DNA of 64,000 nt from Bryobacterales bacterium (lineage in GTDB: Bacteria; Acidobacteriota; Terriglobia; Bryobacterales; UBA6623). Below, piece after piece: positions 9,151 to 27,685 of the stretch. The notes beneath the pieces are model-generated. The model was not told the DNA's origin, made no database searches, and saw nothing but the letters and a program-made list of their open reading frames with translations. The translations under genes were made by a program, and so were the position numbers. Positions within the stretch are counted from its first letter, which is position 1. The number at the start of each line of letters is the position of its first letter. The stretch covers positions 14,971-78,970 of the forward strand of contig JAPPMB010000059.1 of NCBI GenBank assembly GCA_028819255.1, read 5' to 3'.

Positions 9151-12100
9151 ATGATCCGCACCGCCGCGGCAGACAACAACTCCATCCCCCGTCCCGGGAT
9201 GCTTGCCACAGTCCGCAACCGCCGTGGCACCGTGACCGCCGTCGACCCGTTTGACGGCGAAGCCGGTCGACTCCACATCGTTCACCTCGAATACCAAGAC
9301 GGCGTCTCTCCCTCCGCCGAGCGTCTCCTGTGGGAACTTGAACCATCGCGGGCACTTCTGGAGCCGACCGCCCTGCCCGACCCGTTCGACACCGATCCGA
9401 TGCCCGCAGCGGATTTCGACGCGCTCCTTCGCACTGCTCGCTGGACGGCACTCTCCCCCTACCTCGGTCTGCCCGGCACCGGCCGGGAAGAAGGCCACGA
9501 ACCCATCGCCAGTCCCTTCCACGGCGGCGTTCGCGTCGAAGACTTTCAACTTGTCCCACTCCTGAAAGCACTGCGAATGCCGCGAGTCAGCCTGCTCATT
9601 GCGGACGACGTTGGACTCGGCAAGACCATTGAGGCCGGACTGATCCTTACCGAACTGCTGCTCCGGCGCCGTATCCGCCGCGTCCTCGTCCTCGCCCCCG
9701 CTGCCCTGCGGGATCAGTGGAAGGAGGAACTGTGGGAGAAGTTCTCGCTTTCCTTTGAGGTCGTCGACCGCCGATCAACCGAGGCTCTCCGACGAAAGCT
9801 TGGCATCGACGCCAACCCGTGGCGATCTTTCAGCCGGATCATCGCCTCCTATCACTATCTGCGACAGCCGGACGTGCGGGAGCAGTTCCTGTCGGCATGC
9901 TCGGTGCCCGATGGATCGCCCCGGCTCCCGTGGGACCTGCTGATTGTGGATGAGTGCCACAACCTCATGCCGATGTCGGTCGGCGAGGACAGCCAGCTCT
10001 GTCAAACCCTCGGGCTCTTGGCCCCTCGGTTTGAGCACCGCCTCTTTCTCTCAGCCACGCCCCACAACGGACACACGCGCTCCTTCACCGGCCTGCTGGA
10101 GATGCTCGATCCAGTCCGCTTCAGCCGAACCCACGAGATGGGTCCCGCCATGCGCCGACGCGTCGAGGACGTAGTCATACGAAGGCTGAAGAGCGACATC
10201 AATGTTGGAAGCTCAGGACCCCGCTTCTGCACCCGGAAGCCGCCTCAAGCGTTGCCGCTCGCGGCCAACCCCAGAGAATCCGAGTTGTCAAACGCCTTTG
10301 ACGCGTTTCGCTCCTCGATCGGAAAGCTGGTCGCCGTGGGCACTCAAGGGCGCCGTCGTGCGGGCACCTTTGCGGTCGAGGTGCTCGGCAAGCGCCTTCT
10401 TTCCTGCCCGGCAGCATTCGTCGACTCCTGGTACCGAACCATGGAGGGGATGATTGAGGAGACCGCCTCGGAAACCGACATGAGGATGGCGGAACGAGTT
10501 CTCCGCCAAGAGACAGGAGATGACAGAGAGGCGCAGCAGCGTCAGGCGACCGCCGCCGCGATCGTGGGAGGCTGGCTCCAGAACTACAGCGAGGAAGTGA
10601 CGGCGGAGATCCGCCGGATCCAGCGGGTCGTCGCAAGTCTTGGATTCGTCCCGGACGGCCCACCCGTCACTGAGCAGGTGCCCACTGACGATGCGCGTTT
10701 CGACGCGCTGATTGGACTTATCGACGATCTACTGCTCCGAGACGGCAGATTCCGGCATGACGAGCGGCTGATCGTCTTCACCGAATACAAGACAACGCTG
10801 GACTACCTCGCCAATCGTCTACGGCAGAAATATCAAGAGCAACGGGTGCTGACTCTGTTCGGCGGAGGAGGCCCAGCGGGTATGGAGGTTACCGAGCGCG
10901 ACAGCGTCAAGGCCGCCTTCAACGATCCAGATGGCGAAGTGCGCATCCTGATCGCTACGGATGCCGCATCCGAAGGACTCAATCTCCATCGAACCGCCCG
11001 CTACCTGCTCCATTACGACTGCCCTTGGAACCCGTCGAGGATCGAACAGCGCAACGGTCGTCTCGACCGCTACGGGCAGGCTCGCGACGTGACCGTGCAT
11101 CACTTCGACAGCAGTGGCGATTCCGACATTTCCTTTCTGGGCCGCGTGATTCGAAAGGCGGACGACATCCGAGAGGACCTGGGTTCCGCCAATGAAGTCT
11201 TCGACCGTGCGGTGCGTCGCCGCTTGATTGACGGTGACGATGGCGGCCTCTTTCAGAACGCCCTGCGCCTTGGCGTCGAGAACGCACACGACATTCAGAT
11301 CAATGAGTTCGACCGATCGGTCACTTCGGAGAATGGTGCAGCAGGAACCGGTGATCGGGTCCGGGCGTTAGCATCTGCGATCGACTTGGACAGCGTCAAG
11401 ATGGCCTCGACTCTCGAGGCGGCGATGGCCATTTCTGCCCCACGCCCTCTGCTCGATGAGACCGGCGAGCCGGAGCTATACCGCCTCCGTCGTCCCAACA
11501 TGCCTGAATGGGAGAATGTGATTGACCGCTCTATTCGTCAGCATCAATCGAGCAGTGGCGATGCCCTTGGTCCAGTCCGAAAGATCGCTTTCGGTCCTGC
11601 CCCCTTCATAGAAAGCCTTGGTGACTTGAGTGTTTTCAAGACCCGCCCGGACGCCGTTCTCATGCATCTGGCGCACCCAATGATGAAGCGCGCTCTCGGG
11701 ATGCTGACCAGGCGCCGCTATCCAGGCGAAGGCGGTGTGTCCCGCTGGACGGTTCGGATTGGTGGCGTGCCTCCCGACGCCGAAGCGCTGATCCTGTTGA
11801 GTGTCGAGGAACTCGGAGTCAATGAACTCAGGGAGAGCTTTCACCACTGGGTGCGAATCGTCGGGTTTCCAGTCCGGAGTGGACGTATCGGGAGCCCGCT
11901 CATGAACATGTCGATTGACGATCTTGAATCCGGCTATGCGACGACGGAATCCGCCGACTTGGACCTCGCCCGTGACCTGCTCGCCGATTCGCATAGCAAC
12001 CTGCGGCGCTGGCTGCGCAGCTATCAAGACAAGCTCACGGACCTCTTGCATGGGCAGCTGAAGGCTGACGAGGCCGCGGCCCGAAAGCGCGAAGACCGAC

Positions 12101-12453
12101 GATACCGCCAGCGAGAGGGTGAAGTGTCGAGACTGATCGAGAATTCCACGGTACGCCGACTCGAGCGCGAAATCAGCGACCTCAAGGTGAAGCGCGAGCA
12201 AGGCCATCTGTTTGACGAGGCGAGGTCCCTCGACAAGGTCGACGGCTCCATTGAGGAGAAGAAAAAGGAAATCGAGCGCCGTCGCAGGCATTACACGGAG
12301 ATTCGAGACCAATTGGGCCGAGAACGGAGCCGCATTCTCGAACGCCTGCTCCCGGCCCGGTCCTCACTTGCGGGTGAGGCTCGAGTGTTTCCGGTGACGA
12401 CTGAGGTGCGGCTGCCCGAACCGGGAGAGGCAGGCGGAGGGCGGGGCCGATGA
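9151..12453 (+). CDS. SNF2-family helicase, DISARM DrmD-like
   Basis: 1100 residues. After an N-terminal region of about 130 residues comes a superfamily 2 core: motif I DDVGLGKT (152-159), Walker B DECH (267-270), motif III SATPHNG (301-307), C-terminal RecA lobe starting FTEYKTTLDYL (543) and motif VI QRNGRLDRYGQ (633-643). This is the SNF2/RapA pattern of double-stranded DNA translocases. The C-terminal third has a basic coiled-coil segment (about 970-1060). In class 1 DISARM a SNF2 helicase (DrmD) is encoded next to an adenine methylase (DrmMI). Here the stop overlaps the start of the methylase gene (ATGA, 12450-12453), implying translational coupling. A housekeeping RapA is unlikely given that coupling. 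Predicted to act on invading DNA in the cytosol. Confidence 0.8.
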   Translation: MIRTAAADNNSIPRPGMLATVRNRRGTVTAVDPFDGEAGRLHIVHLEYQDGVSPSAERLLWELEPSRALLEPTALPDPFDTDPMPAADFDALLRTARWTALSPYLGLPGTGREEGHEPIASPFHGGVRVEDFQLVPLLKALRMPRVSLLIADDVGLGKTIEAGLILTELLLRRRIRRVLVLAPAALRDQWKEELWEKFSLSFEVVDRRSTEALRRKLGIDANPWRSFSRIIASYHYLRQPDVREQFLSACSVPDGSPRLPWDLLIVDECHNLMPMSVGEDSQLCQTLGLLAPRFEHRLFLSATPHNGHTRSFTGLLEMLDPVRFSRTHEMGPAMRRRVEDVVIRRLKSDINVGSSGPRFCTRKPPQALPLAANPRESELSNAFDAFRSSIGKLVAVGTQGRRRAGTFAVEVLGKRLLSCPAAFVDSWYRTMEGMIEETASETDMRMAERVLRQETGDDREAQQRQATAAAIVGGWLQNYSEEVTAEIRRIQRVVASLGFVPDGPPVTEQVPTDDARFDALIGLIDDLLLRDGRFRHDERLIVFTEYKTTLDYLANRLRQKYQEQRVLTLFGGGGPAGMEVTERDSVKAAFNDPDGEVRILIATDAASEGLNLHRTARYLLHYDCPWNPSRIEQRNGRLDRYGQARDVTVHHFDSSGDSDISFLGRVIRKADDIREDLGSANEVFDRAVRRRLIDGDDGGLFQNALRLGVENAHDIQINEFDRSVTSENGAAGTGDRVRALASAIDLDSVKMASTLEAAMAISAPRPLLDETGEPELYRLRRPNMPEWENVIDRSIRQHQSSSGDALGPVRKIAFGPAPFIESLGDLSVFKTRPDAVLMHLAHPMMKRALGMLTRRRYPGEGGVSRWTVRIGGVPPDAEALILLSVEELGVNELRESFHHWVRIVGFPVRSGRIGSPLMNMSIDDLESGYATTESADLDLARDLLADSHSNLRRWLRSYQDKLTDLLHGQLKADEAAARKREDRRYRQREGEVSRLIENSTVRRLEREISDLKVKREQGHLFDEARSLDKVDGSIEEKKKEIERRRRHYTEIRDQLGRERSRILERLLPARSSLAGEARVFPVTTEVRLPEPGEAGGGRGR

Positions 12454-15400
12454 CCGCCAAGCCAAGCGAACCCATCCCGGGGTGGGACCAATTGCGCCAT
12501 GCCGGACTGCTGCTGGACGGCCAGCGGCTCCAATCCCTGGACGGATACGTGCCGGGAGCCCTGAACAAACACGTCGAGCAGCGGCTGCGCCGCCGGGCAG
12601 CGGCTCTGACGGGGGGTAGTGACGACCCCGGCAGAACATCGGCCATTTCCCACTTCGTGTCCTTTGTCCTTGAGGAAGTGTGTGGCTTTGGACGGATCTC
12701 GGGCAGCTGGCAACGAGGCAGCCAGGTCCCTCCGGCGCAAGGCAGGCGGGCGGTCACCGGGGAGACCGTCAAGCCCCGCCATCTCTGGAGTGGTTCGCAC
12801 GGCGCCTCGCTACCTGTCTTCATCGGCGAAGCGAAACGGATCGGAATCGGACGCGGCCGCAGGATCGTCAGCCAGGTCCTAGGCTGGCTCAGGGCAGAAA
12901 GCGAGCATCTCGCACTGGTCACCAACGGTCGGCAGTGGCGGTTGGTGTTTGCTGGTCTGGACTACGACGCTTCGTGTGAATGGGATACCGAACTCTGGTT
13001 CGAGGAAGGCGAGCTCGCGGACCAAGTCACGGCCATGAGAACCCTGCTGGGCCCGAAGATCTGGACACCCGGGAAGAAGGGTGCCTCGTCGCCGATTCTC
13101 CAGGCAATCCGTGAGACGCGAAAAGGGCAAGCCGACCTGTCCGAGGTGCTGGGCGAGCGGGTCCGGGAGGCTGTGGAGATTCTGGTGCAGAGCCACGGCG
13201 AAGCCTTGAGGAAGCTTGCCGCCGGTGATGACGAGGTTCCCGAGGCAGACATCTATCGCGCGGCATGCCGGATCACGATGCGCGCGGTTGTCATCCTGTT
13301 CGCGGAATCACGCGAACTGCTTCCTAGGGGCAATACCGTCTATGACGAGAGCTACGGCCTGAACGGTCTCTTCTCCCAGCTCGAACGCCGCGATGCGCGG
13401 GGAGAATCCATGAGCGAGGTCTTCGGGGCGTGGCCGCGCGTTCTTGCGCTCTTCCGCCTGGTGACCGATGGCTCGCACCACCCCGACCTTCCTGTGCATG
13501 CATACGGCGGCGAGCTCTTTGCGGCGGGACGTAGCGACTCCAAGGAAGGAGTCTCCCGAGCCCTCCAAGTTCTCGAGACGGCGTGCTTCGGCGGCAATGT
13601 TATCTCCGATCGAAGTGTCTACAAGATGCTGCACCTCCTGACCCGCACGCGGGCGAGGATACGGCAGGGTCGCGGGGGCATGTGGGTGACCGTTCCGGTG
13701 GATTTCTCCGACCTCTCCTCCGAATACATCGGCATCGTGTATGAAGGTCTCTTGGACTACGAACTCAGGACCGCACCAGACGGAGATCCGGTGGTCTTTC
13801 TCGCAGTTGGCGACCGCCCGGCGCTCCCGCTGTCTCGTCTGGAGGCGATGGACGACAAGGCGATTCGTGAACTGTTCAAGAAGCTCAAGAAGGACGCCTC
13901 CGAAGGCGGAGGGGGGGAGGACGACCGATCGGATGACATATTGGCGGTGGAAGGTAAGGGGCCTGTCACCGGGCCGACGACTTCAGAGGAGACCATTGAC
14001 GAACGCCGGACCGACCGGACACGCGCCGAGGGATGGGCGCGCCGTGCCGCCCAAGTAGCCAGGTTGGTTAGGAAGCCGCGAGGACGGATGACTCCAGAAC
14101 GCCGCCTTGCGTACAATCGGAAGGTCGGTGAGACCGCACGCAAGCTTGTCCACCAACTTGTGCTCCCGGGCGAGTGGTATCTGGTCCGCTGGGGCGGTAC
14201 TCGCAAAGGTTCGGGCAGCTACTACACACGACCCAGTCTGGCGGTGCCAACCGTGCAGCGTACGCTGCGTCCGCTGGCGTACGAACCCCCTGACGGTGTT
14301 CCTCCCAAAGATGCCAGGCACGCACCGGCTACCGATTGGAGTCCAAGGCTCCCGGAGGAAATCCTCTCCCTCAAGGCGTGCGACCCTGCGTGCGGCTCCG
14401 GCTCATTCGTGCTGGCTGCCCTTCGATTCCTGACTGAAGCACTGTACGAATCGCTGCAGCATCATGGTCGCATCGAATCCTACGGGGACCATTCACTCGT
14501 CTGGATGCTCGGAATCAAGGCGGGCGAGAACGACGATGGCGACAGGCTGAGCGACGAACAGATACCCTGTGCTCCTGACCATCCCGACTTCGAGTCTATC
14601 CTCAAGGCCCGCCTGCGACGCCATGTGGTTGAGCGATGCATCTACGCGGTCGACCTCGACCCTCTCGCGGTCGAGCTTTGCCGTCTCTCGCTATGGATCG
14701 AGACCATGGACCGAGATCTTCCGTTCGGGTTCCTGGACCACAAGATCAAGTGCGGCAACGCCCTGGTCGGTGCCTGGCTCGATCAATTCCAACACTATCC
14801 GGCGATTGCCTGGAAAAACCGCGAAGGGGGCGACAAGAACCATTCCAACGGGGTGCATTTCAAGAAGAACGCGCGTGGGGAGGCAATCAAGGCGTTTCAC
14901 ACAGACCGGCTAACGCCTGATATGAAGGAGTTCTTGGGAGGAAAGACATTATTTCACGAGGATCTGCTACAAACGGCTGTTACGGCGCATACTGAAGCGA
15001 TCAAAGTTCTAAACCATATGCACGAGCTGCCCATTCAAGATGCGACCGAGCGGGCGGATGTCTACCGCAACGACCTCCGTGGATCAGCGGAATGGAAGTC
15101 ATTGAGGAACGCTATGGACCTGTGGTGTGCCTGCTGGTTCTGGCCCGCAGACAAGATCGCTTACGCACCGCTACCGACTAGATTCGCGGATCCTCCGGAA
15201 AGAACAAGCGAGGTGGCAAAGGAGGTTGCTGCCCGCTACCGGTTCTACCATTGGGAACTGGAGTTTCCAGATGTGTTCCACAAAGAGGGAGCGGGGTTCG
15301 ATGCGATGCTTGGCAATCCACCGTGGGACATTGCCAAGCCCGCCTCAATGGAGTACTTTTCGAATATCGATCCCCTTTACCGGTCTTACGGCAAGCAGGA

Positions 15401-17816
15401 AGCTCTAGGCAAACAGAAAGAGTACTTTGGAGACGAGGCCGTGGAGCGGGCTTGGCTGGACTATTGCGCTGGCTTCCGTGCTCAGTCTAATTTTGTAGGA
15501 CGAACTCGGAATCCATTCGGGGACCCGGACAAGAGTGACAAGAGTCAGAACAGATTCAGCGTTGTAAGGGGTAAACGAAACGCGGACTTCCATCAACGAT
15601 GGCGAGCCGCTCGAAGACGCTCGCACGGTTTCGCAGACACGCAACACCCGTTCCGTCACCAAGGATCGGCTGACCTGAATCTCTACAAGCTATTCCTCGA
15701 GACAGCGCACGCGCTGGCTAAGACGGGCGGCCGGATCGGGTTCCTTGTTCCCTCTGGGCTCTATTCCGACAACGGAACGAAGGCTCTGCGGATGCTGTTC
15801 CTCAGAGGCTGTCGCTGGGAGTGGCTATTCGGTATCGAAAACCGTGCAAAGATATTTCCAATCGATAGCCGTGCAAAGTTTAACCCCATCATTATCAAGA
15901 AGGGAGGGTCAACTCAAGCAATTCAGACCGCCTTCATGCGCAGAGATGTGGAAGATTGGGAGTGCGCTGAGGAATTGGCCATTCCCTACACTCGTGCGCA
16001 GCTGGAGCAGTTCAGCCCCAAAAGCCGCGCCATCCTTGAGATTCAGTCCGGGCGTGACCTGAAGATTTTGGAAAAAATCTACGCTAATTCCGTGCTGCTT
16101 GGCGAAAACGGGTGCGAAGGGTGGGAGATCCAGTACGCTCGCGAGTTCGATATGACCAACGACTCGCAGCTATTTCCACCCCGCCCGAAGTGGGAGGCGA
16201 AGGGCTACCGTCCCGATGAGTACAGTCGTTGGCTCAAGGGTGATTGGCATCCGATCGAAGACCTATGGACTGAATTGGAAGTCGATCCTGAAAAGCCGGT
16301 GCCCGCGGAGCTCGAACTGGAGGACTGGCTGTTCGACACGAGTGCTGGCCCTGAGCGTCGCGACGCGGAAGCAAAGTATGTGCATGGTCATTTGCTCAAG
16401 CCGGGGGATGTGGCACGGACCGACTGGGCCGTTCGATGTGCACAGCCGCCGTATGACCAGCTGCCGGTTCCGCGCGTGGCGATTCCGCCTGGAATCATTC
16501 TATCGCGGGACGGGACAGAGTGGATTTGGTTTGAGGAGATTCGGGATGTGGCGTTACCGCTTTACGAAGGTCGGATGGTCGGCCAGTTCGACTTCAGTGA
16601 GAAGGAGTGGGTGCGTGGAAAAGGACGGGGGGCAATCTGGAAAGCTATCCCATGGGAATGGAAGGAAATCAGACCACAGTTCCTCATGGGGCTTCACGAG
16701 TACATTGAGCAGAGCGAATTCCTCTGGCGGCCAAAGGTCGTACATATGAACATAGGATCGGCGACGAACACTCGGACAGCCATTGGATCCCTAGTTGCTG
16801 GCATTCCTGCAGGCCACTCCGCACCGATCTTGAGGCTAATAGATGTTCGTCACACGCTGACTTTGACTGCTCTCTTTAATTCGTTCGTGTTCGATTTTGT
16901 CACTCGACGCAGGGTAACGGGGCTACATCTGGACTATCATATCCTCGAACAGAATCCTTTAATGTCCCTCAGAAATACCGTGATTCGATCTGGTATTATA
17001 TCGGAGGCTTCACGAGCACTCTGTTTGTCTCCAAGATGTCTAGCTCCATTGGTCTTGGAATCTCAGAGGGCAGGAGTCAACTTGGACTGGGGAGGTCTAA
17101 TGACTGCCATAACTAATGCAGAGAGAATACGGATTCGAGCTATTCTAGATGCCATTGTATTCGTCATGTTTGGACTGGATTACTACGACCTACAGCGGGT
17201 TCTTGAGGGTTGTGACTCACCCGCTGCGGGTATGGTAGTTAGGAGTTTGAATCCAAAGGGGTTTTGGCGTTTGGATCGCCAGCGTGATCCCGAGTTGCGG
17301 CAAACCATCCTGACACTGGTAGCATTTCGTGACCTTGAATCGAAGATCAATGCTGCGAATGGCATCCGTGCCAAGGGTATCCAGGATTTCTTTGCTCAGA
17401 ATGAAGGGAAGGGCTGGCTTCTTCCTGAATCGCTATGCCTCTCTGACTACGGCTTGGGCCGTGACGAACGGGCTCGCCAGTACCAGCCTGTGGCAAGCAG
17501 GCTTGGCCCTCGATTCTACGACTGGCAACTTACCCAGGCCGGGAGAGAGTTGTGGCATGAGTGGCACCTTCATGCCCGCAATCTCCTAGGTCCAGTGGAG
17601 CACACCTGCTGCCTAGCACCCTCTGCAGGCTCTATCCGGAGTACTTGGCCTGTAGAATATGCGCCGATCACCGCAGAGAAGCATTCTAAGTGGTCGTTTC
17701 GCGGCAGGCACACTAACAAGCATCAAGAACCTAAACGGGAGCACATCTCTCCACGGTCGGCTGCCGTTGCGCAGATGGAACTACCGATCCTGCAGCAGGG
17801 CAACCTGTTTGAATAG
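12450..17816 (+). CDS. Large N6-adenine DNA methyltransferase, DrmMI/Eco57I-like, possible N-terminal nuclease fold
   Basis: 1788 residues, translationally coupled to the upstream helicase. SAM motif I DPACGSGSF (645-653) and catalytic motif IV NPPWD (956-960) identify an N6-adenine methylase of the Eco57I/PglX/DrmMI group. AVDLDPLAVELCRLSLW, between motifs I and IV, matches the adenine-MTase motif II region. The N-terminal 200 residues carry a PD-(D/E)XK-like trace: GEAKRIG with E127-x-K129, followed by TNGRQWRLV, as in type I or IIG restriction N-termini. The C-terminal 600 residues would hold target recognition. The protein is longer than typical single-chain methylases. Base composition becomes visibly more AT-rich after about 15,300, so the 3' half may have a different history. 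In DISARM the methylase marks self DNA; whether this one also restricts is inference. Confidence 0.8.
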   Translation: MTAKPSEPIPGWDQLRHAGLLLDGQRLQSLDGYVPGALNKHVEQRLRRRAAALTGGSDDPGRTSAISHFVSFVLEEVCGFGRISGSWQRGSQVPPAQGRRAVTGETVKPRHLWSGSHGASLPVFIGEAKRIGIGRGRRIVSQVLGWLRAESEHLALVTNGRQWRLVFAGLDYDASCEWDTELWFEEGELADQVTAMRTLLGPKIWTPGKKGASSPILQAIRETRKGQADLSEVLGERVREAVEILVQSHGEALRKLAAGDDEVPEADIYRAACRITMRAVVILFAESRELLPRGNTVYDESYGLNGLFSQLERRDARGESMSEVFGAWPRVLALFRLVTDGSHHPDLPVHAYGGELFAAGRSDSKEGVSRALQVLETACFGGNVISDRSVYKMLHLLTRTRARIRQGRGGMWVTVPVDFSDLSSEYIGIVYEGLLDYELRTAPDGDPVVFLAVGDRPALPLSRLEAMDDKAIRELFKKLKKDASEGGGGEDDRSDDILAVEGKGPVTGPTTSEETIDERRTDRTRAEGWARRAAQVARLVRKPRGRMTPERRLAYNRKVGETARKLVHQLVLPGEWYLVRWGGTRKGSGSYYTRPSLAVPTVQRTLRPLAYEPPDGVPPKDARHAPATDWSPRLPEEILSLKACDPACGSGSFVLAALRFLTEALYESLQHHGRIESYGDHSLVWMLGIKAGENDDGDRLSDEQIPCAPDHPDFESILKARLRRHVVERCIYAVDLDPLAVELCRLSLWIETMDRDLPFGFLDHKIKCGNALVGAWLDQFQHYPAIAWKNREGGDKNHSNGVHFKKNARGEAIKAFHTDRLTPDMKEFLGGKTLFHEDLLQTAVTAHTEAIKVLNHMHELPIQDATERADVYRNDLRGSAEWKSLRNAMDLWCACWFWPADKIAYAPLPTRFADPPERTSEVAKEVAARYRFYHWELEFPDVFHKEGAGFDAMLGNPPWDIAKPASMEYFSNIDPLYRSYGKQEALGKQKEYFGDEAVERAWLDYCAGFRAQSNFVGRTRNPFGDPDKSDKSQNRFSVVRGKRNADFHQRWRAARRRSHGFADTQHPFRHQGSADLNLYKLFLETAHALAKTGGRIGFLVPSGLYSDNGTKALRMLFLRGCRWEWLFGIENRAKIFPIDSRAKFNPIIIKKGGSTQAIQTAFMRRDVEDWECAEELAIPYTRAQLEQFSPKSRAILEIQSGRDLKILEKIYANSVLLGENGCEGWEIQYAREFDMTNDSQLFPPRPKWEAKGYRPDEYSRWLKGDWHPIEDLWTELEVDPEKPVPAELELEDWLFDTSAGPERRDAEAKYVHGHLLKPGDVARTDWAVRCAQPPYDQLPVPRVAIPPGIILSRDGTEWIWFEEIRDVALPLYEGRMVGQFDFSEKEWVRGKGRGAIWKAIPWEWKEIRPQFLMGLHEYIEQSEFLWRPKVVHMNIGSATNTRTAIGSLVAGIPAGHSAPILRLIDVRHTLTLTALFNSFVFDFVTRRRVTGLHLDYHILEQNPLMSLRNTVIRSGIISEASRALCLSPRCLAPLVLESQRAGVNLDWGGLMTAITNAERIRIRAILDAIVFVMFGLDYYDLQRVLEGCDSPAAGMVVRSLNPKGFWRLDRQRDPELRQTILTLVAFRDLESKINAANGIRAKGIQDFFAQNEGKGWLLPESLCLSDYGLGRDERARQYQPVASRLGPRFYDWQLTQAGRELWHEWHLHARNLLGPVEHTCCLAPSAGSIRSTWPVEYAPITAEKHSKWSFRGRHTNKHQEPKREHISPRSAAVAQMELPILQQGNLFE

Positions 17817-17942: not shown

Positions 17943-18698
17943 TCATGCCACAGAGCGAGGCTGGGCTTTGTGACGGCGCCTCGCATGGACCAACCGCCTC
18001 CTCCCATTCCGGTGATGCAGTCGCTTGGGCAACCGAGGGATGCTGGGATCACCCTGCCTCTGAAGGTATGCCAGCAGTTGGAGATCAGCCTGTACGAGCT
18101 CTGGGTCAACGATCTGCCGCAGGGCCATAAGGAGGGATCGGTGACAGTTGCGAAGTTTGATTCTACTTCCGCAAGGACAGGGCTCATGTCCTTTGGGATG
18201 TGTCTTTCGAGCCAAAAGCAGCATGAAGTCGACGATTGAGGTGTGGTTCACCGAGCCCAATGGGGAAAGGAAGTCTTCGAATGCTTCAAAGACGCCTCTT
18301 GCTCCGTGAGACCTCTCGTGGCTAAATGGCCAGTGGCCGTGGCTTTGGTAGTAGGCTTGTGCTACGAGGTATGGTCGAACCAGCGTAGTCAGGAAGTCTG
18401 TAAGATCCGACCTAGGTGGCCAGTGCATCCTGTATTCGGAGGTAACACATAGGCAGGCGAGGCCGTTACGGCACACATGCCGATCAATTTCCCACGGGAT
18501 CTCGCGCTGGTTACACCAGAGCTTGGGGATTCCGCAAGGGTAGTTTCCTGGGATCTCCAAGTTGATGGTGAATCCGAGCCCAGGTTCAATCCACATTATC
18601 CCTGTGACCCTCGCAGGGACTCGCGCCGTATCTAGCGTTAGTGTTGGAAAAGTCTCGGAGAGATGATCTCGCTCTCTTGACGCTGGCATTTGTTTCAT
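17943..18698 (-). CDS. CBASS E2-like conjugating protein with SEC-C motif
   Basis: 251 residues, last gene of the CBASS operon, 6 bases after the CD-NTase gene. Residues 1-145 look like a bacterial E2 (UBC) domain: GFTINLEIPGNYPCGIPKL (the UBC beta-strand and P-rich segment), then H74-V-C-R-N-G-L-A-C82-L, matching the E2 pattern H-x-x-x-x-G-x-x-C-L with C82 as likely catalytic Cys. No E1 or JAB gene is present, which matches the short form of type II CBASS in which only an E2-like protein accompanies the cyclase. A SEC-C zinc motif follows (CPCGSRIKLRNCH, C174, C176, C185, H186). The tail is strongly basic. Family knowledge suggests it activates the cyclase by covalent conjugation; the SEC-C addition is unusual. 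Confidence 0.7.
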   Translation of the reverse strand: MKQMPASRERDHLSETFPTLTLDTARVPARVTGIMWIEPGLGFTINLEIPGNYPCGIPKLWCNQREIPWEIDRHVCRNGLACLCVTSEYRMHWPPRSDLTDFLTTLVRPYLVAQAYYQSHGHWPFSHERSHGARGVFEAFEDFLSPLGSVNHTSIVDFMLLLARKTHPKGHEPCPCGSRIKLRNCHRSLLMALRQIVDPELVQADLQLLAYLQRQGDPSIPRLPKRLHHRNGRRRLVHARRRHKAQPRSVA

Positions 18699-18704
18699 TT
18701 CGAA

Positions 18705-19727
18705 TCATCCAATCTCTTCGTATCCCTTGCTTGCATAGGGTTTTGGGGCTGAGATCAGCGCTGCGATCCTCGCTTTGCTACTGGTCTTCTCTTTTTTCTC
18801 TGCCTCAGCAATTCTCTTGTCGAAGAAATTGGTGTGAAACACTTTTTTCCATGCCTTGAGGGCCTTGGAGCGTGTACAGTTTGGCAGGTCGAGTTCCGCG
18901 AGATCGTCGACAGCTCTCTCAAGAAGTTTGCAGAGATTCCGACTTTGGTGTTCGTTTTCAGCGTCAATAATCCACTCACCCACTACAACGGGATGTCTTA
19001 CATAAGGATTAATGCCGAGGAGATCTAGAATCCGCTTCGCAATTTGAAGGAATTCGATGTCGAGCCTATCATCGCCCATATCATAGCACTCTTTTACCAA
19101 GGTCGTGATTACGAACCCACTCGGAAGAGAGTATGATGGCCGGTTCTTGCAGAAGCTCTTCAGTAAACGAATCAACTCACGTGAATGCCTCCGCTCACTA
19201 GACCTGTTTCGGTCTAACCAATTCTTGAACCAGTCATTCACACCATTTGGGTCTGACTTCTTCCAGTCAGAACTTGCAAGCTCATACCAAACCTCGCCGG
19301 ACCAGTCTTCTCGTTGACGGTAGACTGGGATATCGACATGAGGTCCGTCATTGTAGAATACGCGGACACAGTTAGTCTTCACCTCAGGGGGCGAAACGAA
19401 GGCATCGCTATGAACCGCAGCACAGACCATCTTCCGCACGTCGAGAGCAGACCTCTCCGCGCCCCTCGGCCCTTTCAGCGTTGCAGCGTCGAAGACCACG
19501 CCGTCGTCAATGTCATACGCGTTGTTTGGCTCTTGAGTGACCGTTCGCATCGCGTAGGAACCTTGAGAGACTGACCCAATCGGTGAGGGTCCTCTTCGTT
19601 TCTCAAGACCGCTTCGCAGTCGCTTCCGGTTGCTGTCACGCCGGTCCTTTAGCGTTCCTCGTTGAATAGAGGTCAGAGCTACCTCTTCACGATGGTAGGC
19701 CCGGATGTCCTTGTCACAATTCTTCAT
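18705..19727 (-). CDS. CBASS CD-NTase (DncV/cGAS-like nucleotidyltransferase)
   Basis: 340 residues from the ATG at 19727, which overlaps the end of the phospholipase gene by 14 bases; the open frame extends upstream but without family features. The nucleotidyltransferase signature G51-S-V-S-Q-G-S-Y is followed by catalytic acids D72-I-D74 (YDIDDGVVF), with a third acid at D132 in PHVDIPVY. The C-terminal helical half includes the RELIRLLKSFCKNR segment of the oligonucleotide-synthase fold. These enzymes make cyclic oligonucleotides when phage infection is sensed, and those activate an effector. The chain ends in Glu-Glu-Ile-Gly, and a terminal Gly is the feature used for E1/E2-dependent conjugation of CD-NTases in type II CBASS, consistent with the E2 gene next door. 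The signal molecule is not known. Confidence 0.85.
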   Translation of the reverse strand: MKNCDKDIRAYHREEVALTSIQRGTLKDRRDSNRKRLRSGLEKRRGPSPIGSVSQGSYAMRTVTQEPNNAYDIDDGVVFDAATLKGPRGAERSALDVRKMVCAAVHSDAFVSPPEVKTNCVRVFYNDGPHVDIPVYRQREDWSGEVWYELASSDWKKSDPNGVNDWFKNWLDRNRSSERRHSRELIRLLKSFCKNRPSYSLPSGFVITTLVKECYDMGDDRLDIEFLQIAKRILDLLGINPYVRHPVVVGEWIIDAENEHQSRNLCKLLERAVDDLAELDLPNCTRSKALKAWKKVFHTNFFDKRIAEAEKKEKTSSKARIAALISAPKPYASKGYEEIG

Positions 19728-20847
19728 TTCGATTCCCTTCCATTCTGATTGTATCTGAGTGATTGATCTCCGGCATCGTCTCGAAGATCTGGGATAGTAC
19801 TTCGCCACGACAGTCGCCCGATAGTTGGCACCATCGGAAAGTCTTTTGGCCGTCCTCGTTTCCCAACTGCTTCATGAGGTCACGCGCCTCCTTCGACGCC
19901 GAATCGAGTCGGAGGACGTGGGCCTGCTCCGCTGAAGGCATCGATTCCTCACAGCGCAAAATGTGGACCCGCTTGTCGAGACGCTTCAGTTCGTCCGCGA
20001 GAAGCGTAACCGCGAAGTGGGTGGCCGACACTTGTGCGTTCATGGCCAACTCCAAAGGAAGGACGCCGCCATGCCACGCGATAATGCCGCGGTCGAGCTC
20101 CGCTGGAAGTCGAGACCCGGTTGGCGGAGAACAGGTGCCCACCGACATGACTATGATCGGCTGCTCCGGAACTGAGAGGGCGAGGCCCTCGATGACACCC
20201 AGTAGCATCGGATTGTTTGCCCACAAGCCACCATCGGCATAGGCATGGCCGGTCAGACCATCTGCTGTGATAGACGCCAAGGGAAGATAGATCGGAGCAG
20301 CACTGCTCGCGAGACAGGCGTCGGCCAGAGTTAGGTCGTTATCCCGGTGCTTGTTCTCGAGGTGCGGTGTCTTGAACACTCTTGGCTTGTGGCGAAGGAA
20401 CGAGGTCGCCGATATGCACAGTCCGATGCGGCGCTGTACGTAGACTTCGCCGAGTGTCAGATTCCCAAAGATCTCTCGGAGTTCAGAGTTCAGTGCGGTG
20501 TTGGGATTCCCGGCGCGGCCGAGGTGCCGGACTACCCAGCGATAGAACCGAGCTCTGTCCCGAAACTTCAGCGACCGGTCGTAGGGTGGCATCGAATCTC
20601 TGAAGATCCGAGGTCCCGCCTCGTCGTAGAGCCGGATGACACGGTTTGGTCGGATCCCCGCTACGATGGCCGCCGCTAGGATCGCACCTGTGCTCGTTCC
20701 AACTACGAGATCGAAGCCCTTCCCGATGTCCAGGTGGTCCGACGCTCTGGATTGGGCGAAGCGGCTTGCAAGTGTGTTCAGGACGGTCGCACTGTACAGG
20801 CCGCGCATTCCGCCGCCGTCCAAGGCCAGGACTCGAATCGGGTCCAC
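19714..20847 (-). CDS. capV: CBASS effector, patatin-like phospholipase CapV
   Basis: 377 residues. Patatin catalytic elements are complete: oxyanion loop GGGMRG (11-16), nucleophile elbow G50-T-S52-T-G and catalytic Asp in D205-G-G. The arrangement with a CD-NTase directly downstream is that of CapV effectors, which are switched on by the cyclic nucleotide (3',3'-cGAMP in characterised cases) and degrade the inner membrane of the infected cell. The C-terminal 70 residues extend beyond the patatin core. Overlap with the cyclase start suggests coupled translation. About 80 bases separate it from the upstream protease gene, enough for a weak internal promoter. Confidence 0.9.
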   Translation of the reverse strand: MDPIRVLALDGGGMRGLYSATVLNTLASRFAQSRASDHLDIGKGFDLVVGTSTGAILAAAIVAGIRPNRVIRLYDEAGPRIFRDSMPPYDRSLKFRDRARFYRWVVRHLGRAGNPNTALNSELREIFGNLTLGEVYVQRRIGLCISATSFLRHKPRVFKTPHLENKHRDNDLTLADACLASSAAPIYLPLASITADGLTGHAYADGGLWANNPMLLGVIEGLALSVPEQPIIVMSVGTCSPPTGSRLPAELDRGIIAWHGGVLPLELAMNAQVSATHFAVTLLADELKRLDKRVHILRCEESMPSAEQAHVLRLDSASKEARDLMKQLGNEDGQKTFRWCQLSGDCRGEVLSQIFETMPEINHSDTIRMEGNRNEEL

Positions 20848-20928
20848 AAGCTAATGTTAGCATACGGAAGCTTACAGTTCAGCGCGGAAGACTCTGTCGC
20901 GCCGCTTGGAAGGCATCGTCTGGGGGCG

Positions 20929-21627
20929 TCAGAGCGAACGTTGCTCTCCCGGTGGGAAGATTGACTTGAGCCGAATCTTCGCGACCACAGAGTTCACGTC
21001 GAACGCCGTCACCAAGCGCCGAGCCGCCTGATCCCGCTTGGAATCTGGCAATCTGGGCAGACCGAGTAATCCCGAAGCGACCATGAGCGGTTCAACGCAG
21101 GCCTCGACGAGTCCTCGCGGCAGCAACAGCCCACCAATGGCTTGGTTCGCCTGCCATTCCCACCACTTCCCGTCATAGCCTCGGGAATGGTTGGCGAAGT
21201 CTTCCTTGCGGCACATAATCATTCGACGCTTGTAGTCGAAGCTGCCGTCAAGCAACGGATGGGCCCCGAATCCTTCACTGAACAGCTGCGCGTGGAGCAG
21301 GCCGTGGCCAGCCTCGTGAGCCAACGTGGACCGAACTCGACGTTCGCCAACCCGACCATCGCTGAAGAGCGATCTCGCCGCGCCTACGAGTTCGACACTG
21401 CCACCGGAATCGAAGACGGCAAGACCCAAGACGTCAGGCTTAAGGTCCTCATATGCTATTTGGCAGCCAAGAAACTTCTCGACGAACAGTTCGATCTCAA
21501 TCGCCTTCGGAGTAGATGGCAGACATCCGACCGACTCCAAGGCATCCAAACAGATGCCGTCGATCTCGCCTACGGCGAAGTAGAGTCGGCGGCCGAATGG
21601 CCCTCCGAGTGTTGTCTTCTCTGTCAT
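20929..21627 (-). CDS. ImmA/IrrE-family metallopeptidase, probable CapP-like CBASS activator
   Basis: 232 residues. The zinc-protease helix H104-E-A-G-H108 sits in RSTLAHEAGHGLLHAQLF, typical of the IrrE/ImmA (DUF955) family. Its ATG overlaps the stop of the upstream HTH gene by four bases, and it precedes capV on the same strand. Known CBASS loci can carry CapH (HTH repressor) and CapP (ImmA-like protease); CapP cleaves CapH on DNA damage and relieves repression. Domain content and coupling fit that pair well. The remaining zinc ligand is not certain by eye, though the acidic segment after KWWEWQANQAIGGLLLP, typical of the family, is present. Confidence 0.75.
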   Translation of the reverse strand: MTEKTTLGGPFGRRLYFAVGEIDGICLDALESVGCLPSTPKAIEIELFVEKFLGCQIAYEDLKPDVLGLAVFDSGGSVELVGAARSLFSDGRVGERRVRSTLAHEAGHGLLHAQLFSEGFGAHPLLDGSFDYKRRMIMCRKEDFANHSRGYDGKWWEWQANQAIGGLLLPRGLVEACVEPLMVASGLLGLPRLPDSKRDQAARRLVTAFDVNSVVAKIRLKSIFPPGEQRSL

Positions 21628-21992
21628 GGGGTCTCTTGCTCCGGATCCGCGTCAGTGAGCCTGCTCACCAGTTCTTCCGGCGTCAGTCCCTTCTCGATCT
21701 GTTCAGCCGTCGTCCGGAACGCCACGCCCCAGCGCGGGTTGGTCTGGGATAGGTGCTTGAGTGTCGACAGCGATTCTCGGAAGTCGTACCTGCGAAGGTC
21801 GCTTGCGTCGACTTCGAGTTCAGTTGCGATGGCTTGGAGGACTCCGGGCGACGGGAACCGATGCCCCAATTCAACATCAGATATGAATGGTGCTGATTTT
21901 CCGACCTTCATCGCAAGTTGTCGTAGCGAGAGGTTCTTCTCCAGTCGCAGCTCTCGAATCCTCTGACCCAATGTCTTGGCCTCCATTTCCAA
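21624..21992 (-). CDS. XRE-family HTH regulator, probable CapH-like CBASS repressor
   Basis: 122 residues. The N-terminal 65 residues form an XRE/Cro-type helix-turn-helix: LGQRIRELRLEKNLSLRQLA, then VGKSAPFISDVELGHRFPSP, with the ISDVELG recognition segment. The rest is helical and acidic and could dimerise or contact the protease. It heads the CBASS operon and overlaps the protease gene (ATGA at 21624-21627), as in CapH-CapP modules. Likely autorepressor of the operon. A palindrome 88 bases upstream of its start (22080-22093) is a candidate binding site. ATG at 21986 is an alternative start. Confidence 0.75.
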   Translation of the reverse strand: MEMEAKTLGQRIRELRLEKNLSLRQLAMKVGKSAPFISDVELGHRFPSPGVLQAIATELEVDASDLRRYDFRESLSTLKHLSQTNPRWGVAFRTTAEQIEKGLTPEELVSRLTDADPEQETP

Positions 21993-22222: not shown

Positions 22223-25200
22223 ATGGCCCTGAATCCCGTCGTCTACATCGAGAAGGTCACGAAGAGCTTCCTCCGTTACCAGCTCACCGCCTACCCCTTC
22301 TCCGATCCCCACCTCTTCGCGCAGATGCGCGATCTCCTTTCCCTTGACCACACTCGAGCGTCTCCCCTCCTCCGAGGCCCGTACGTAAGCCTCTCCCGCC
22401 CCTTCCGGGCCGGTGCTCCCATCCAGCAGATGGTCAGCGAAGGCATCATTCACCCCCACCTGGCGTCCAGGGTCCCGTCAAGCATCACCCATTTCTACAG
22501 CCATCAGGAGCGCGCACTCCGGGCAATCGGCGAGGGCCGCACGACGCTGATCTCTACCGGCACCGGTTCGGGGAAGACCGAGTGCTTCCTCTATCCGGTT
22601 GTCAGCCAGTGCCTGAGACTCCAGGACGAGTCTGCGGCACCCGGGATCAGCGCTGTCGTCGTCTACCCGATGAACGCATTGGCCGAGGACCAGCTCATGC
22701 GGCTCCGCGGGCTGCTGGCAGGCACGGGAGTACCCTTCGGCATCTATATCGGGAAGACTCCGGAGCGGGAAGTCGACGTGGCCGGTGCCCGCCTCCGTCC
22801 AGGCTCGTCGCGTGCGGATTACCTGGCTCGGCTTGAGAGAGCCCGACGGGACGGCACCGGCGAGACCGTTCACCCGGAAGAAGAGGTCTGCTCGCGCCAA
22901 GCTATGCGGTCACCTGGAGGGCAGCCCCGAATCCTTCTCACCAACGTCAAGCAGCTTGAACTGCTTCTCACAAGACAGAAGGACATCGAACTGTTCTCGG
23001 GAGCGCGCCTCGACTACTTGGTCTTCGACGAAGCCCACACCTTCAGCGGTGCAATGGGGGCCGAGACGGCCTGCCTGATCCGCCGTTTGAGATCGTTCTG
23101 CAACATCGCTCCCGGGCATGCCAGATGCATCGCCACCTCGGCGACCATCGTCGACCGAAACGATCCGGATGCGGCCCGCAACTTCGCGGCGAGGTTCTTC
23201 GGCGTTGCGGCCGACGAGGTTGTGACGGTTGGGGAAGACTACGAGAGCGAGACTTGGGCCGAGCCGCGAGTGGTCCCGCCAACGCCGAACGGGGATCCTT
23301 CGAAGATATTGGAAACGTGCGTCGAGGCCGTGGAAGACGAAGACAACTTTGGCTCCGCGGTCGAAGGGGCGTATCGCTTGCTGTCAGGCCGGACCCTGCA
23401 CACTCAGGGCGCGAACGGATGGTCCGCCGCCCTCCACGCCGCGCTCTCCCGCAACGAGTTGGTCTTCCGTCTCAACGACGAACTCTCCGGGCCACGCCCG
23501 CTTGATGAGCTTCCCGACGCTCTCAAGAAGCACGTTGGGCGGCCCGTCACCGAAGCCGAGATTCTCGCTTGGCTGACCCTCGGTGCGGCCGCACGGCACG
23601 ATGAACGCCCGCTGTTGCGGCCCGTTGTCCACGGATTCGTTCGTGGGATCGGGGGAGCGGTAGTGTCATTTCCGGAGCACCACCAAGGCGCGAAACTTTG
23701 GCTCGCCGCAAAGGACGACACCGGCCTCATCGAGTCCGAGCAACATTACGCACACCTTCGGGTCATGACATGCACCGTTTGTGGACAGCACTACTACATC
23801 GCTTTCCTCAAGGATTTCTCGTACACGGGCAAGCAACCTGGAGGCGGGGAGGCCAGCCAGGATGGCGCGTACTGGGAACCCCTCGACGAAGCGAACGGTG
23901 GCAGGCGATTGGTATTGATTGATCATCTGATCGGCCAAGCCGATTCCGACAGCAACCCGGCGTCTACGCGCACTGCGTCCCTCCACTTCTGCCGTCGCTG
24001 CGCCGCCGCCCATCCCAAGCGGGTGGACCGGTGTCGCTCTTGTGGCCACGCCGGTGTCACGGTAGATCTTCACGTGGTCCGGCAGAGCCGCGAGAAGCCT
24101 GGCAAGTTGACTAGCTGTCTGTCTTGCGGTTCCACCGGCCACCGGGTGCTGGGACGCTACCGGGAGCCGGCACGGCCAGTGCGGGCGGTGCCAGTCGCGG
24201 ATGTCCACGTCCTGACCCAGGACATGGTGCATCACGCGGCTCGGCCGCGACTGCTCGTGTTCTGTGACAACCGCCAGGACGCGGCGTTTCAGGCAGGCTG
24301 GATGAAGGATCACGCCCGCCGCTTTCGTCTCCGGGCGCTCATGTCGGAGGGCATTCTGGCGAATCCGGGAACCTCGGTAGGAGACCTGACGGGCTACCTC
24401 GAGGAGCGTATGGAGGAAGACGAGGCTCTGTCCCGGGCACTCATTCCGGAGGTCTGGCAGGTGGCCCGACGTGAGGGCTCTGCCTCCCGCCACATGCGAG
24501 AACGCCGAAAGTACCTCCGCGTTCAGGTACTGCGGGAGGTCACCCTCTCTTCACGGCAGGCGCTCGGTCTGGAGCCCTGGGGCAGGATGAGTGTGCAGTA
24601 CGACGGGCTCTCCTCTTCGCTTCCTTGGGTCCAGGAAAACGCTCTCCGGTTGGGCATCCCAGCCGACCGCCTGCGGGATGGAGTGGCAAGCGTCCTCGAC
24701 TACTTTCGCCGCCGAGGAGCGCTACTCGACCCTGAGTATAAGGTCTTCACGAAGTACTGGGGCGAGGGCTCACTTGAAGTGCAGCAAGGCTTCATCCCCA
24801 GCTTTATCAGGCCGCTGGGATTGAAGTTGCGGCGGGAACCGGACGAGGAAGGCAAGTGGGTCATGCAATGGCTCAGCAGCTCCGGTGACACGACGATGCG
24901 CCAGATTGCCAGGAAGTGGGGCGAGCCTTCCGACTCGATTGCTCCGTTTCTGGATGGCTTCTACGCATTCCTGGTTCGGCAGAACCTCCTCAAGCCGGTG
25001 CGCCTGCTTGGAGCACGGGGCAGAGCTCTGCCGAACCTTGAGGGCGTGCATCAGGTCAATGGGGACGCCCTCAGGCTCCACCCGAACACACGCCTCGCAC
25101 GCTGTAGAAGGTGTCGCCGCACGATCACTCGCGAAGTTCCGAAGGGCCGTTGCCCCGCTTGGCGCTGCAGCGGCAAACTCGAATGGATCCGCGAGAACCC

Positions 25201-27685
25201 GGACAACTACAACCTTCAGCTCCTCGATGGGGCGTACGCGATGCTTCGCCCCGAAGAGCACACGGCCATGGTCCCCAACGACCACCGCGAGCGCCTCGAG
25301 AACTGGTTCAAGGGTGATTCCAACGCCGTCAACTGCCTCGTCTGCACACCGACACTCGAACTTGGGATCGACATCGGCCGTCTCGATTCGGTCCTGATGC
25401 GCAACGTTCCGCCGCTCCCTGCGAACTATTGGCAGCGAGCAGGGAGGGCAGGACGCCGCCACCGGATGGCGGTCAATATGACCTATTGCCGCCCGGTCTC
25501 ACATGACCGCGCCTACTTCGTGGAGCCCCCGAAGCTGCTCGGTGGGCGGATCGACCCTCCGGCCTTCAATCTCCGAAACGAGGTCATGGTTGCCAAGCAC
25601 GTCCACGCGACGGTTATTGGCTCGCTGCACCGTCTCGGCCGTGATTCCCGGCGGCCGAAGTCCGAACGGCAATTGGTACGTGGGGTTCTCGACACATGCC
25701 TTCCCGGGAAGGTCACACCGTACCTGTTCGACGGAGAGTATGTGCGACAGCAACCGTTCGATTTTGCCCAGCTGCGGGATCTTATTCGCCAGCATGGGCC
25801 GTATCTGGTGGACAACGTGGGCTCAGTCTTCGATCAGGGCTGGCCAGAGGCCGATTCGGACGTTGTGACGCCTGGAGCGCTTCGCAAGCATGTCGATCAC
25901 TTTGTGGATGAACTCGAAGAGGTGGTGGCACGACTGCGTCGGCGCCTGCGATGGGCAATGGCGCAGATCGCGCGGCTGAATAGCGTGCTTGCAAGCCGCG
26001 GGACACTGAGCAAGGAGGACGAGGCGCTTTTCAGGCGATGTAGGCGGCTCGTCAGCCGGCTGAAGGGCGAGGCATCCGGGCGCAGCCGTGCGGAGGGCCA
26101 CGATTCCTCGATCACGTTCAGTGTCTTGGCGGCAGAGGGATTTCTGCCTGGCTATGGACTGGAAACCGGTTACGTAATCGCATGGGCGGAAATCCCCTAC
26201 TGGGTTGAGGGTGGGATGGACTTCGTCCTTCCGAGACCTCCGGCGACGGCGTTGCGCGAGTATGTGCCGGGCAACCTCATCTATGCCAACGGGCACCGCT
26301 TCGCTGCCCGCCGATTCCACCGGGATCCGAGCGAAGAACACGTCGATATGCCCGTGTTCGAAGTATCCGCCGAGCATCAGGCAGTCAAGGAGACGACCGC
26401 CGGTGTGTCGTCATCGCTTGGGGGTAAGATCCTTCGTGCGATGGCGGTCTGCGACGTCGACCTTGTCCATGTCTCTCACATCTCGGACGACGAGGACCTG
26501 CGCTTCCAGCTCGGAGTTGCCGTATTCGGCGTGGAGCTTGGCCAGCACAGCGGAGGTAAAGCCTTCCGATGGGGTGGCCAGTCCCTGCTCATGAGGCGAG
26601 GCGTGCGAATACGTCTTGTCAACGTTGGTGTTTCAGAGGCTATCAAGAGCGGAATCGGCCTTGGGTTTCCGGTTTGCACCATTTGCGGACAGAGTGTCTC
26701 GTCCCTGTCATCGGAAGCCCAGCGTGAGAAATTCCGCGAATCCCACCAGACGCGCTGCGGTCGCAACCCGGATCCGGTTGGATTCTACGCTGACATCGCG
26801 GCCGATGCGCTGTCGCTCCCCGGATGCACGAGCGCGACTCAAGCCTACAGTGTCCTCGAGGCTCTTCGGATAGGCGCGACAGGAATCTTGGACATGCACA
26901 TGGAAGATCTTCAGATCCTTGTGATTGGCGAGATCGGAAACGAGGCGGTAAATGGGCTGCTTTGGGATCCCATGCCTGGAGGCTCGGGCCTTCTGGAGCG
27001 TCTGTACGAACGGTTCGCCGAGGTCATTGAGGCTGCCCGGGACGTAGTGACAGCCTGCCCTGGCGCCTGTGAGTCGTCCTGTGTCGACTGCCTGCAAACC
27101 TTCCGCAACTCGTACTACCACAATCGGCTCAACCGAAGGATCGCCCTCGATACACTCAAGAAATGTGGCCATCAACTGGCGTTTCAGCACGAAGTCTCTC
27201 CGCAGCTACCGGCTTCTCTGCAATCCGATTACGCAGTGCCAGTCAACTTGGCGGAAACGAAGCTTCGCCATCTGCTGATCGCAGCTGGATTCGGGGAAGG
27301 GGTCCGTGGACACCAGATCCATCTGGGCGGTGCCCTCGGCACCACAACTCCAGACGTGATCTACCGTGACCCGGACGACGATTACTGCAGAGGGGTGTGC
27401 ATCTATCTTGACGGCATGAGCAGACACATCCACGGGAACCCGAAAACAGCCCAGAGGGACCGGGCAATCCGCACATGGCTGAAGGGCAGCGACTACGAAG
27501 TTCTGGAGATCCCTGCCAACGAGCTTGACGACCAAGACGCTATGGCGCGGCACTTTCGTCGTCTGGCGATGTATCTCGGCCAAAGACGGAAGGCGCGGAG
27601 GTTGGCCAGAGACAAGAGTTGGTTCACAAATCCCGAGTCATCGGGAATTCGCACCTTGCCCCGTGGCTCCCAAATCTCAGACTGA
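22223..27685 (+). CDS. Giant DEAD/H helicase with DUF1998 and Vsr-like C-terminal domain (DrmA/DrmB- or DruE-like)
   Basis: 1820 residues. Motif I TGTGSGKTE lies near 112-120, Walker B DEAH near 268-271, then SAT near 304. Motifs IV-VI are far downstream: TPTLELGIDIG (about 1040) and QRAGRAGRR (about 1072). Between the lobes lie several zinc-type Cys clusters (CTVCGQ, CRRCAAAHP..CRSCG, CLSCGS, CRRCRRT). DUF1998 is marked by C-P-G-A-C-E-S-S-C-V-D-C-L near 1612-1624. The last ~120 residues (AETKLRHLLIAAGF ... TPDVIY ... IYLDG ... RDRAIRTWLKGSDYEVLEI) resemble Vsr/DUF559 endonuclease-like domains seen on DruE-type helicases. DISARM splits helicase and DUF1998 into DrmA and DrmB, whereas Druantia DruE keeps them in one huge chain. 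It lies beyond the inserted CBASS operon, on the same strand as the methylase. Predicted to unwind or translocate on foreign DNA. Confidence 0.8.
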   Translation: MALNPVVYIEKVTKSFLRYQLTAYPFSDPHLFAQMRDLLSLDHTRASPLLRGPYVSLSRPFRAGAPIQQMVSEGIIHPHLASRVPSSITHFYSHQERALRAIGEGRTTLISTGTGSGKTECFLYPVVSQCLRLQDESAAPGISAVVVYPMNALAEDQLMRLRGLLAGTGVPFGIYIGKTPEREVDVAGARLRPGSSRADYLARLERARRDGTGETVHPEEEVCSRQAMRSPGGQPRILLTNVKQLELLLTRQKDIELFSGARLDYLVFDEAHTFSGAMGAETACLIRRLRSFCNIAPGHARCIATSATIVDRNDPDAARNFAARFFGVAADEVVTVGEDYESETWAEPRVVPPTPNGDPSKILETCVEAVEDEDNFGSAVEGAYRLLSGRTLHTQGANGWSAALHAALSRNELVFRLNDELSGPRPLDELPDALKKHVGRPVTEAEILAWLTLGAAARHDERPLLRPVVHGFVRGIGGAVVSFPEHHQGAKLWLAAKDDTGLIESEQHYAHLRVMTCTVCGQHYYIAFLKDFSYTGKQPGGGEASQDGAYWEPLDEANGGRRLVLIDHLIGQADSDSNPASTRTASLHFCRRCAAAHPKRVDRCRSCGHAGVTVDLHVVRQSREKPGKLTSCLSCGSTGHRVLGRYREPARPVRAVPVADVHVLTQDMVHHAARPRLLVFCDNRQDAAFQAGWMKDHARRFRLRALMSEGILANPGTSVGDLTGYLEERMEEDEALSRALIPEVWQVARREGSASRHMRERRKYLRVQVLREVTLSSRQALGLEPWGRMSVQYDGLSSSLPWVQENALRLGIPADRLRDGVASVLDYFRRRGALLDPEYKVFTKYWGEGSLEVQQGFIPSFIRPLGLKLRREPDEEGKWVMQWLSSSGDTTMRQIARKWGEPSDSIAPFLDGFYAFLVRQNLLKPVRLLGARGRALPNLEGVHQVNGDALRLHPNTRLARCRRCRRTITREVPKGRCPAWRCSGKLEWIRENPDNYNLQLLDGAYAMLRPEEHTAMVPNDHRERLENWFKGDSNAVNCLVCTPTLELGIDIGRLDSVLMRNVPPLPANYWQRAGRAGRRHRMAVNMTYCRPVSHDRAYFVEPPKLLGGRIDPPAFNLRNEVMVAKHVHATVIGSLHRLGRDSRRPKSERQLVRGVLDTCLPGKVTPYLFDGEYVRQQPFDFAQLRDLIRQHGPYLVDNVGSVFDQGWPEADSDVVTPGALRKHVDHFVDELEEVVARLRRRLRWAMAQIARLNSVLASRGTLSKEDEALFRRCRRLVSRLKGEASGRSRAEGHDSSITFSVLAAEGFLPGYGLETGYVIAWAEIPYWVEGGMDFVLPRPPATALREYVPGNLIYANGHRFAARRFHRDPSEEHVDMPVFEVSAEHQAVKETTAGVSSSLGGKILRAMAVCDVDLVHVSHISDDEDLRFQLGVAVFGVELGQHSGGKAFRWGGQSLLMRRGVRIRLVNVGVSEAIKSGIGLGFPVCTICGQSVSSLSSEAQREKFRESHQTRCGRNPDPVGFYADIAADALSLPGCTSATQAYSVLEALRIGATGILDMHMEDLQILVIGEIGNEAVNGLLWDPMPGGSGLLERLYERFAEVIEAARDVVTACPGACESSCVDCLQTFRNSYYHNRLNRRIALDTLKKCGHQLAFQHEVSPQLPASLQSDYAVPVNLAETKLRHLLIAAGFGEGVRGHQIHLGGALGTTTPDVIYRDPDDDYCRGVCIYLDGMSRHIHGNPKTAQRDRAIRTWLKGSDYEVLEIPANELDDQDAMARHFRRLAMYLGQRRKARRLARDKSWFTNPESSGIRTLPRGSQISD

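Follow-up and report, generated by a model that had tools for sequence, protein, structure and literature searches.

ARMADA is an anti-phage system defined in a preprint (Bell et al., 2025; PMC12458937), the main text of which describes a BrxHII-like ArmA, a PglX-like ArmB and a YprA-like ArmC with a Vsr domain predicted to be active. According to the same text, all four genes of an Escherichia coli Type II system are required for protection, which is abolished when the ArmB NPPW motif carries the substitution N971A, and many archaea and cyanobacteria have Type I systems in the order A-B-C.

Type IIG and IIL enzymes such as DrdV, BpuSI and MmeI carry a PD-(D/E)XK-like lobe ahead of a gamma-type N6-adenine methylase, an arrangement shared with the ArmB protein described here. 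DISARM has split DrmA and DrmB genes and a PLD protein. BREX PglX/BrxX resembles ArmB in being a restriction-type methylase that would lack nuclease activity within a multi-gene defence system, but its N terminus, as described in excerpts of PMC11341690, is a helical bundle with no nuclease domain, unlike that of ArmB. No mention of a nuclease-like lobe in either ArmB or DrmMI was found in the literature searched, the main text of PMC12458937 included and its supplements aside. The ARMADA system is already published; added here are an apparently inactive lobe in ArmB and a nested CBASS cargo.

Gene context of the large methylase

The window, a stretch of 64,000 nt of Bryobacterales DNA, contains a gene for an ArmB-type N6-adenine methylase (12450..17816, forward strand) with an ATG start and a single open frame of 1788 aa. 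As in PglX-like adenine methylases, the SAM and NPPW motifs are intact (ACGSGS at residue 647 and NPPW at residue 956), and the Pfam match is Eco57I methylase. No relevant match was returned by a PDB sequence search with the entire protein, and no relatives were found in the viral contigs searched.

Directly upstream, on the same strand, lies a DrmD-type, BrxHII/RapA-like SNF2 helicase, the putative ArmA (9151..12453; 646.8 bits against NCBIfam DISARM_DrmD, cut-off 610). Downstream, a forward-strand gene of 1820 aa (22223..27685) encodes a DruE/YprA-like helicase with Pfam DEAD, Helicase_C and MZB (DUF1998) domains and a predicted C-terminal Vsr-type nuclease, and is the putative ArmC; its best PADLOC model is DruE, at 336.9 bits against 49.4 bits for DrmA. 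On this gene content the methylase is assigned as the putative ArmB of an ARMADA system, in the order ArmA-ArmB-[CBASS cargo]-ArmC. The gene set, the A-B-C order, the PglX-like methylase with NPPW and the YprA-like helicase with its C-terminal Vsr-type nuclease are all held in common with ARMADA as set out in the preprint's main text, but here a CBASS cassette separates ArmB from ArmC. ArmD, a GajB-like helicase with a RelE-like N terminus, was not recognised among the ORFs listed up to 46000, and the locus is for this reason classed as putatively Type I-like. The next large gene past ArmC (28835-32650, reverse strand, 1271 aa) is RecD-like and scores 1498 bits against PDC-S68, a candidate defence family.

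It is very unlikely that the locus is instead an ordinary class 1 DISARM with the methylase as DrmMI. The upstream helicase, which exceeds the NCBIfam cut-off, is of the DrmD type that marks class 1, and the PADLOC DrmMI model also matches the methylase (418.8 bits, residues 40-963). However, the third gene fits DruE and not DrmA, and in place of separate DrmA and DrmB (DUF1998) genes the helicase, the MZB domain and the Vsr-like C terminus lie in one chain, as in ARMADA. A separate DrmMI gene is, moreover, present elsewhere in the source genome (1290.7 bits with PADLOC). That gene (contig C89 of genome G000, locus L121) has the same N-terminal lobe, and the source genome may hold DISARM besides ARMADA.

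The neighbourhood is recurrent. An ArmA homologue lies upstream of ArmB in 77 of 80 related loci; the remaining three have little upstream sequence, their match starting at locus base 2, 40 or 207. An ArmC homologue is found downstream in 34 of the 73 loci that have the ArmB C terminus, with the gap estimated at roughly -0.2 to 5.9 kb; in 18 of the 34 it is near zero to 0.6 kb. A further 21 loci show no ArmC over the 2-6 kb available beyond ArmB, and the 18 others end too soon.

The CBASS cassette between ArmB and ArmC (17943-21992) lies on the reverse strand and comprises an E2-like gene (17943-18698), a CD-NTase (18705-19808), a patatin-like effector (19714-20847) and CapP- and CapH-like genes (20929-21992). 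Among the relatives, other defence-type genes follow ArmB, up to ArmC where this is seen: NsnB/NsnC, GmrSD_N, PDC-S68, dynamin with SNF2, and DUF5131 (L036:17046-19447, L060:5451-7708, L067:12501-16130, L090:15616-20723 and L044:9622-10443). The PDC-S68 family, matched past ArmC in the window, sits between ArmB and ArmC in L067.

Fold and catalytic positions of the ArmB N-terminal lobe

An earlier note on this DNA had drawn attention to GEAKRIG and TNGRQWRLV near the N terminus of the methylase (nt 12822-12960, ArmB residues 125-170), proposing a PD-(D/E)XK-like fold as in type I and IIG enzymes. Both motifs are present: the first residue of GEAKRIG is 126 (nt 12825), with E127 at 12828-12830 and K129 at 12834-12836, and that of TNGRQW is 158 (nt 12921).

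The lobe that holds them (residues 1-216; 12450..13097, forward strand) was modelled with AlphaFold2 from an alignment of residues 1-216 of the window protein with 70 relatives, drawn from the 80 related loci by removal of rows more than 92% alike and of L072, L077 and L084. The model (mean pLDDT 95.4, pTM 0.91) contains, in order, a helix (62-77), strands 85-89, 111-115 and 120-125, a helix (135-149) and strands 154-158, 162-168 and 173-179, an order that is read as the PD-(D/E)XK plan. The top three Foldseek matches were DrdV (probability 0.99, E 4.9e-3), TT1808 and an HsdR fragment, with no match passing E 0.001. VIA-align matched the lobe to DrdV (Z 9.5, 138 residues, rmsd 3.5), BpuSI (Z 8.8, 144 residues, rmsd 3.8) and HsdR 3h1t (Z 8.1, 120 residues, rmsd 3.2). 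These Z values alone would not settle the fold, because mitoribosomal chains also match at Z 7.3-8.4, near the nuclease values. The predicted assignment is carried by the topology, by the run of nuclease families among the matches and by a link to DrmMI (see below).

Pfam and NCBIfam recognised no family in ArmB residues 1-270, and a profile of the lobe found nothing relevant among PDB sequences at E<=10. Across the 71 rows of the modelling alignment Pfam gave only weak stray matches, including MmeI_N in three rows (0.059 at best) and, in one row (0.026), an inactive-REase family. The expectation of a PD-(D/E)XK-like fold is borne out by the model and the structural matches, and ArmB would in this respect resemble a type IIG enzyme, with an N-terminal PD-(D/E)XK fold.

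The catalytic residues are a different matter. They were followed in an alignment of 89 sequences (the window protein, nine from the genome search and 79 of the 80 related loci, L084 being left out as its N terminus is cut off), in which near-identical rows recur across collections (e.g. L007/L039 and L008/L055), so that the counts are not independent. The earlier note had named the lack of an acidic residue ahead of E127 as fatal to its reading, and for cutting this applies: Arg110 (12777..12779, forward strand) stands at the position of the Asp, since the hhalign alignment to DrmMI puts KPR on RPD. The equivalence of this and the other positions to the catalytic residues of DrdV and BpuSI was judged only from strand order and sequence alignment. 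P109 is invariant, and position 110 is R in 64 sequences, S, N, A, Q or K in most others and acidic in one (L088).

Nor does E127-A-K129 (12828..12836, forward strand) behave as an active site. In the model it lies in a loop past strand 120-125 by DSSP, in a stretch (F124 to G132) that is 9-22 residues long across the 89 sequences. Three of the 89 have both E127 and K129; an acid at 127 with K129 occurs in 12, against the 17.5 expected from independent columns (38 x 41 / 89). The closest relatives lack E-x-K and read FIDDTARIG and FIADAERIG at that place. The triplet alone proves nothing, since 43.6% of the sequences obtained by shuffling residues 1-250 at constant composition contain at least one bare E-x-K. 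Chance does not explain the fold around it or the family-wide conservation of T158 (87/89), N159 (88/89), G160 (84/89), R148 and R164, though it would suffice for the E-x-K. R148 and R164 are invariant, as are W113, F124, G132 and G134.

ArmB might still be imagined as an active type IIG-like enzyme that both marks and cuts, with a shifted site made of E127-A-K129 and another acid, E105 or E75; this is extremely improbable. In its favour are the resemblance of the fold to DrdV and BpuSI, the presence of the triplet itself, the conservation of E75 (70/89) and E105 (79/89), and the best PADLOC model for the protein, REase_MTase_IIG (1352.8 bits). One ArmB relative, L088, has D110, D127 and K129 together. 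Against it, E127 and K129 are rarely paired, the acid-lysine pair falls below expectation, the triplet is missing from the closest relatives and its loop varies in length; and E105 aligns with the E in ETLRPD of DrmMI proteins, where it coexists with their own Asp and hence is no replacement for it. An active nuclease in ArmB was rejected on these grounds of conservation. The sequence from L088, a Phycisphaerales MAG, is the sole possible full set in the 89, and may be chance or a remnant.

The possibility raised by the earlier note that the methylase might cut DNA is not supported, with Arg110 at the Asp position and E127/K129 unconserved in a variable loop past the third strand, whereas its alternative, a dead nuclease fold, fits a lobe with PD-(D/E)XK-like topology and no catalytic triad. 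ArmB has neither the conserved catalytic Asp nor an (D/E)-x-K on the strand that would be expected of a type IIG enzyme, and it differs from DrdV, BpuSI and MmeI also in having two helicase genes as partners where those enzymes act alone. The PADLOC name REase_MTase_IIG appears unsupported for the family given the missing triad. We consider it highly probable that the N-terminal lobe of ArmB is a type IIG-like PD-(D/E)XK fold without the triad; from this loss it follows that ArmB, as an ARMADA subunit, would mark DNA and not cut it.

Relationship to DrmMI

ArmB and the DrmMI protein of DISARM share a homologous N-terminal lobe, a methylase and a DrmD partner. Comparison of the two N-terminal profiles with hhalign gave 97.8%, E 1.3e-12, over 195 columns, with KPRHLW laid on RPDLVL. 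Many DrmMI rows keep the Asp that ArmB does not: it is retained in 8 of the 16 rows located automatically from 20 tried, a count in which L017, L019, L020 and L024 were not located and L117 was mislocated (its RPD lies after the spot found). A [DE]xK is nearby in three of the 16, in each case off the strand by eye (before it in L118 and L120, past it in L116). Some DrmMI proteins exceed the Pfam MmeI_N cut-off.

A set of 15 MmeI_N-type rows, used as a positive control, has D-x9-E-Q-(K/R) aligned throughout, the last residue being K in 14 of them. The ArmB lobe had no hhalign match to these 15 rows, a narrow set (Neff 1.7). From the residues kept and lost, we infer an order running from an intact type IIL/IIG nuclease through DrmMI, with Asp often kept and E-x-K gone, to ArmB, in which both are gone.

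Roles of the lobe and of ArmC

After the strand that would have borne E-x-K comes a conserved basic stretch, residues 129-145 (GIGRGRR; 12834..12884, forward strand), which is a candidate dock for DNA or a partner. Its mean net charge over the family, +4.27, is the highest of any 17-residue window of the lobe; R or K occupies positions 135, 137 and 138 in 84, 85 and 84 of the 89 sequences, and G132 and G134 never vary. The simplest reading is that it suggests a putative docking role. Where the earlier note had offered DNA binding as the use of a dead fold, the dead fold stands, and binding is a candidate function to which this conserved basic stretch points. The lobe could also be imagined as no more than a remnant of structure that separates the N terminus from the methylase core, an inert spacer with no docking role, and the loss of the catalytic residues and the indirect, sequence-derived case for docking lend this some credit; but the six invariant residues (W113, F124, G132, G134, R148 and R164) and the basic GRGRR are kept beyond what a spacer needs, and such a spacer seems unlikely. 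In BrxHII and BREX-related helicases, too, a degenerate PD-(D/E)XK fold is retained in a defence protein, and this inactive REase domain has been proposed as a sensor in excerpts of PMC12839542; there it sits on a helicase, in ArmB on a methylase.

A more plausible cutter is found in the third gene. The C terminus of ArmC (residues ~1675-1787; 27245..27583, forward strand) contains a Vsr-like domain with TPD (1709), YLDG (1728) and HIHG (1735), and all 17 aligned ArmC sequences agree in the D of TPD (D1711), in Y-L-D-G (with D1730) and in the closing H-G. In a middling model (pLDDT 75.9), Foldseek with this region gave no match below E 0.001, and it was a second look with VIA-align that matched I-Bth0305I (Z 11.4, 97 residues) and Vsr (Z 8.2, 109 residues). 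The invariant motif, the Vsr fold match and the statement in the main text of PMC12458937 together make this domain the best candidate effector, and a plausible, putative cutter.

The predicted fold, the family-wide loss of the triad, the gene context, the intact methylase motifs and the intact Vsr-type motif of ArmC are directly supported, and a mechanism can be proposed around them. The lobe of ArmB would descend from an active nuclease and would now act as a basic module that docks DNA or a partner and so places ArmB with the helicases. Methylation by ArmB would spare the host, and the Vsr-like domain of ArmC, driven by the helicase, would cut or disable unmodified phage DNA. More tentatively, and less likely than not, the ArmB/DrmMI lobe may have turned from cutter to reader: the basic loop beside the dead site would dock DNA or ArmA/ArmC, site recognition by ArmB would license or block the Vsr domain of ArmC, and the ArmB-ArmC junction would also serve as a niche into which other defence cassettes insert.

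The absence of the triad corrects a misleading label, that of type IIG restriction enzyme given to the ArmB family by the best PADLOC model, and the place to look for the cutter shifts from the methylase to the neighbouring helicase. A possible evolutionary path also emerges, in which restriction enzymes would have become subunits of helicase-based defence by losing nuclease activity while keeping the lobe.
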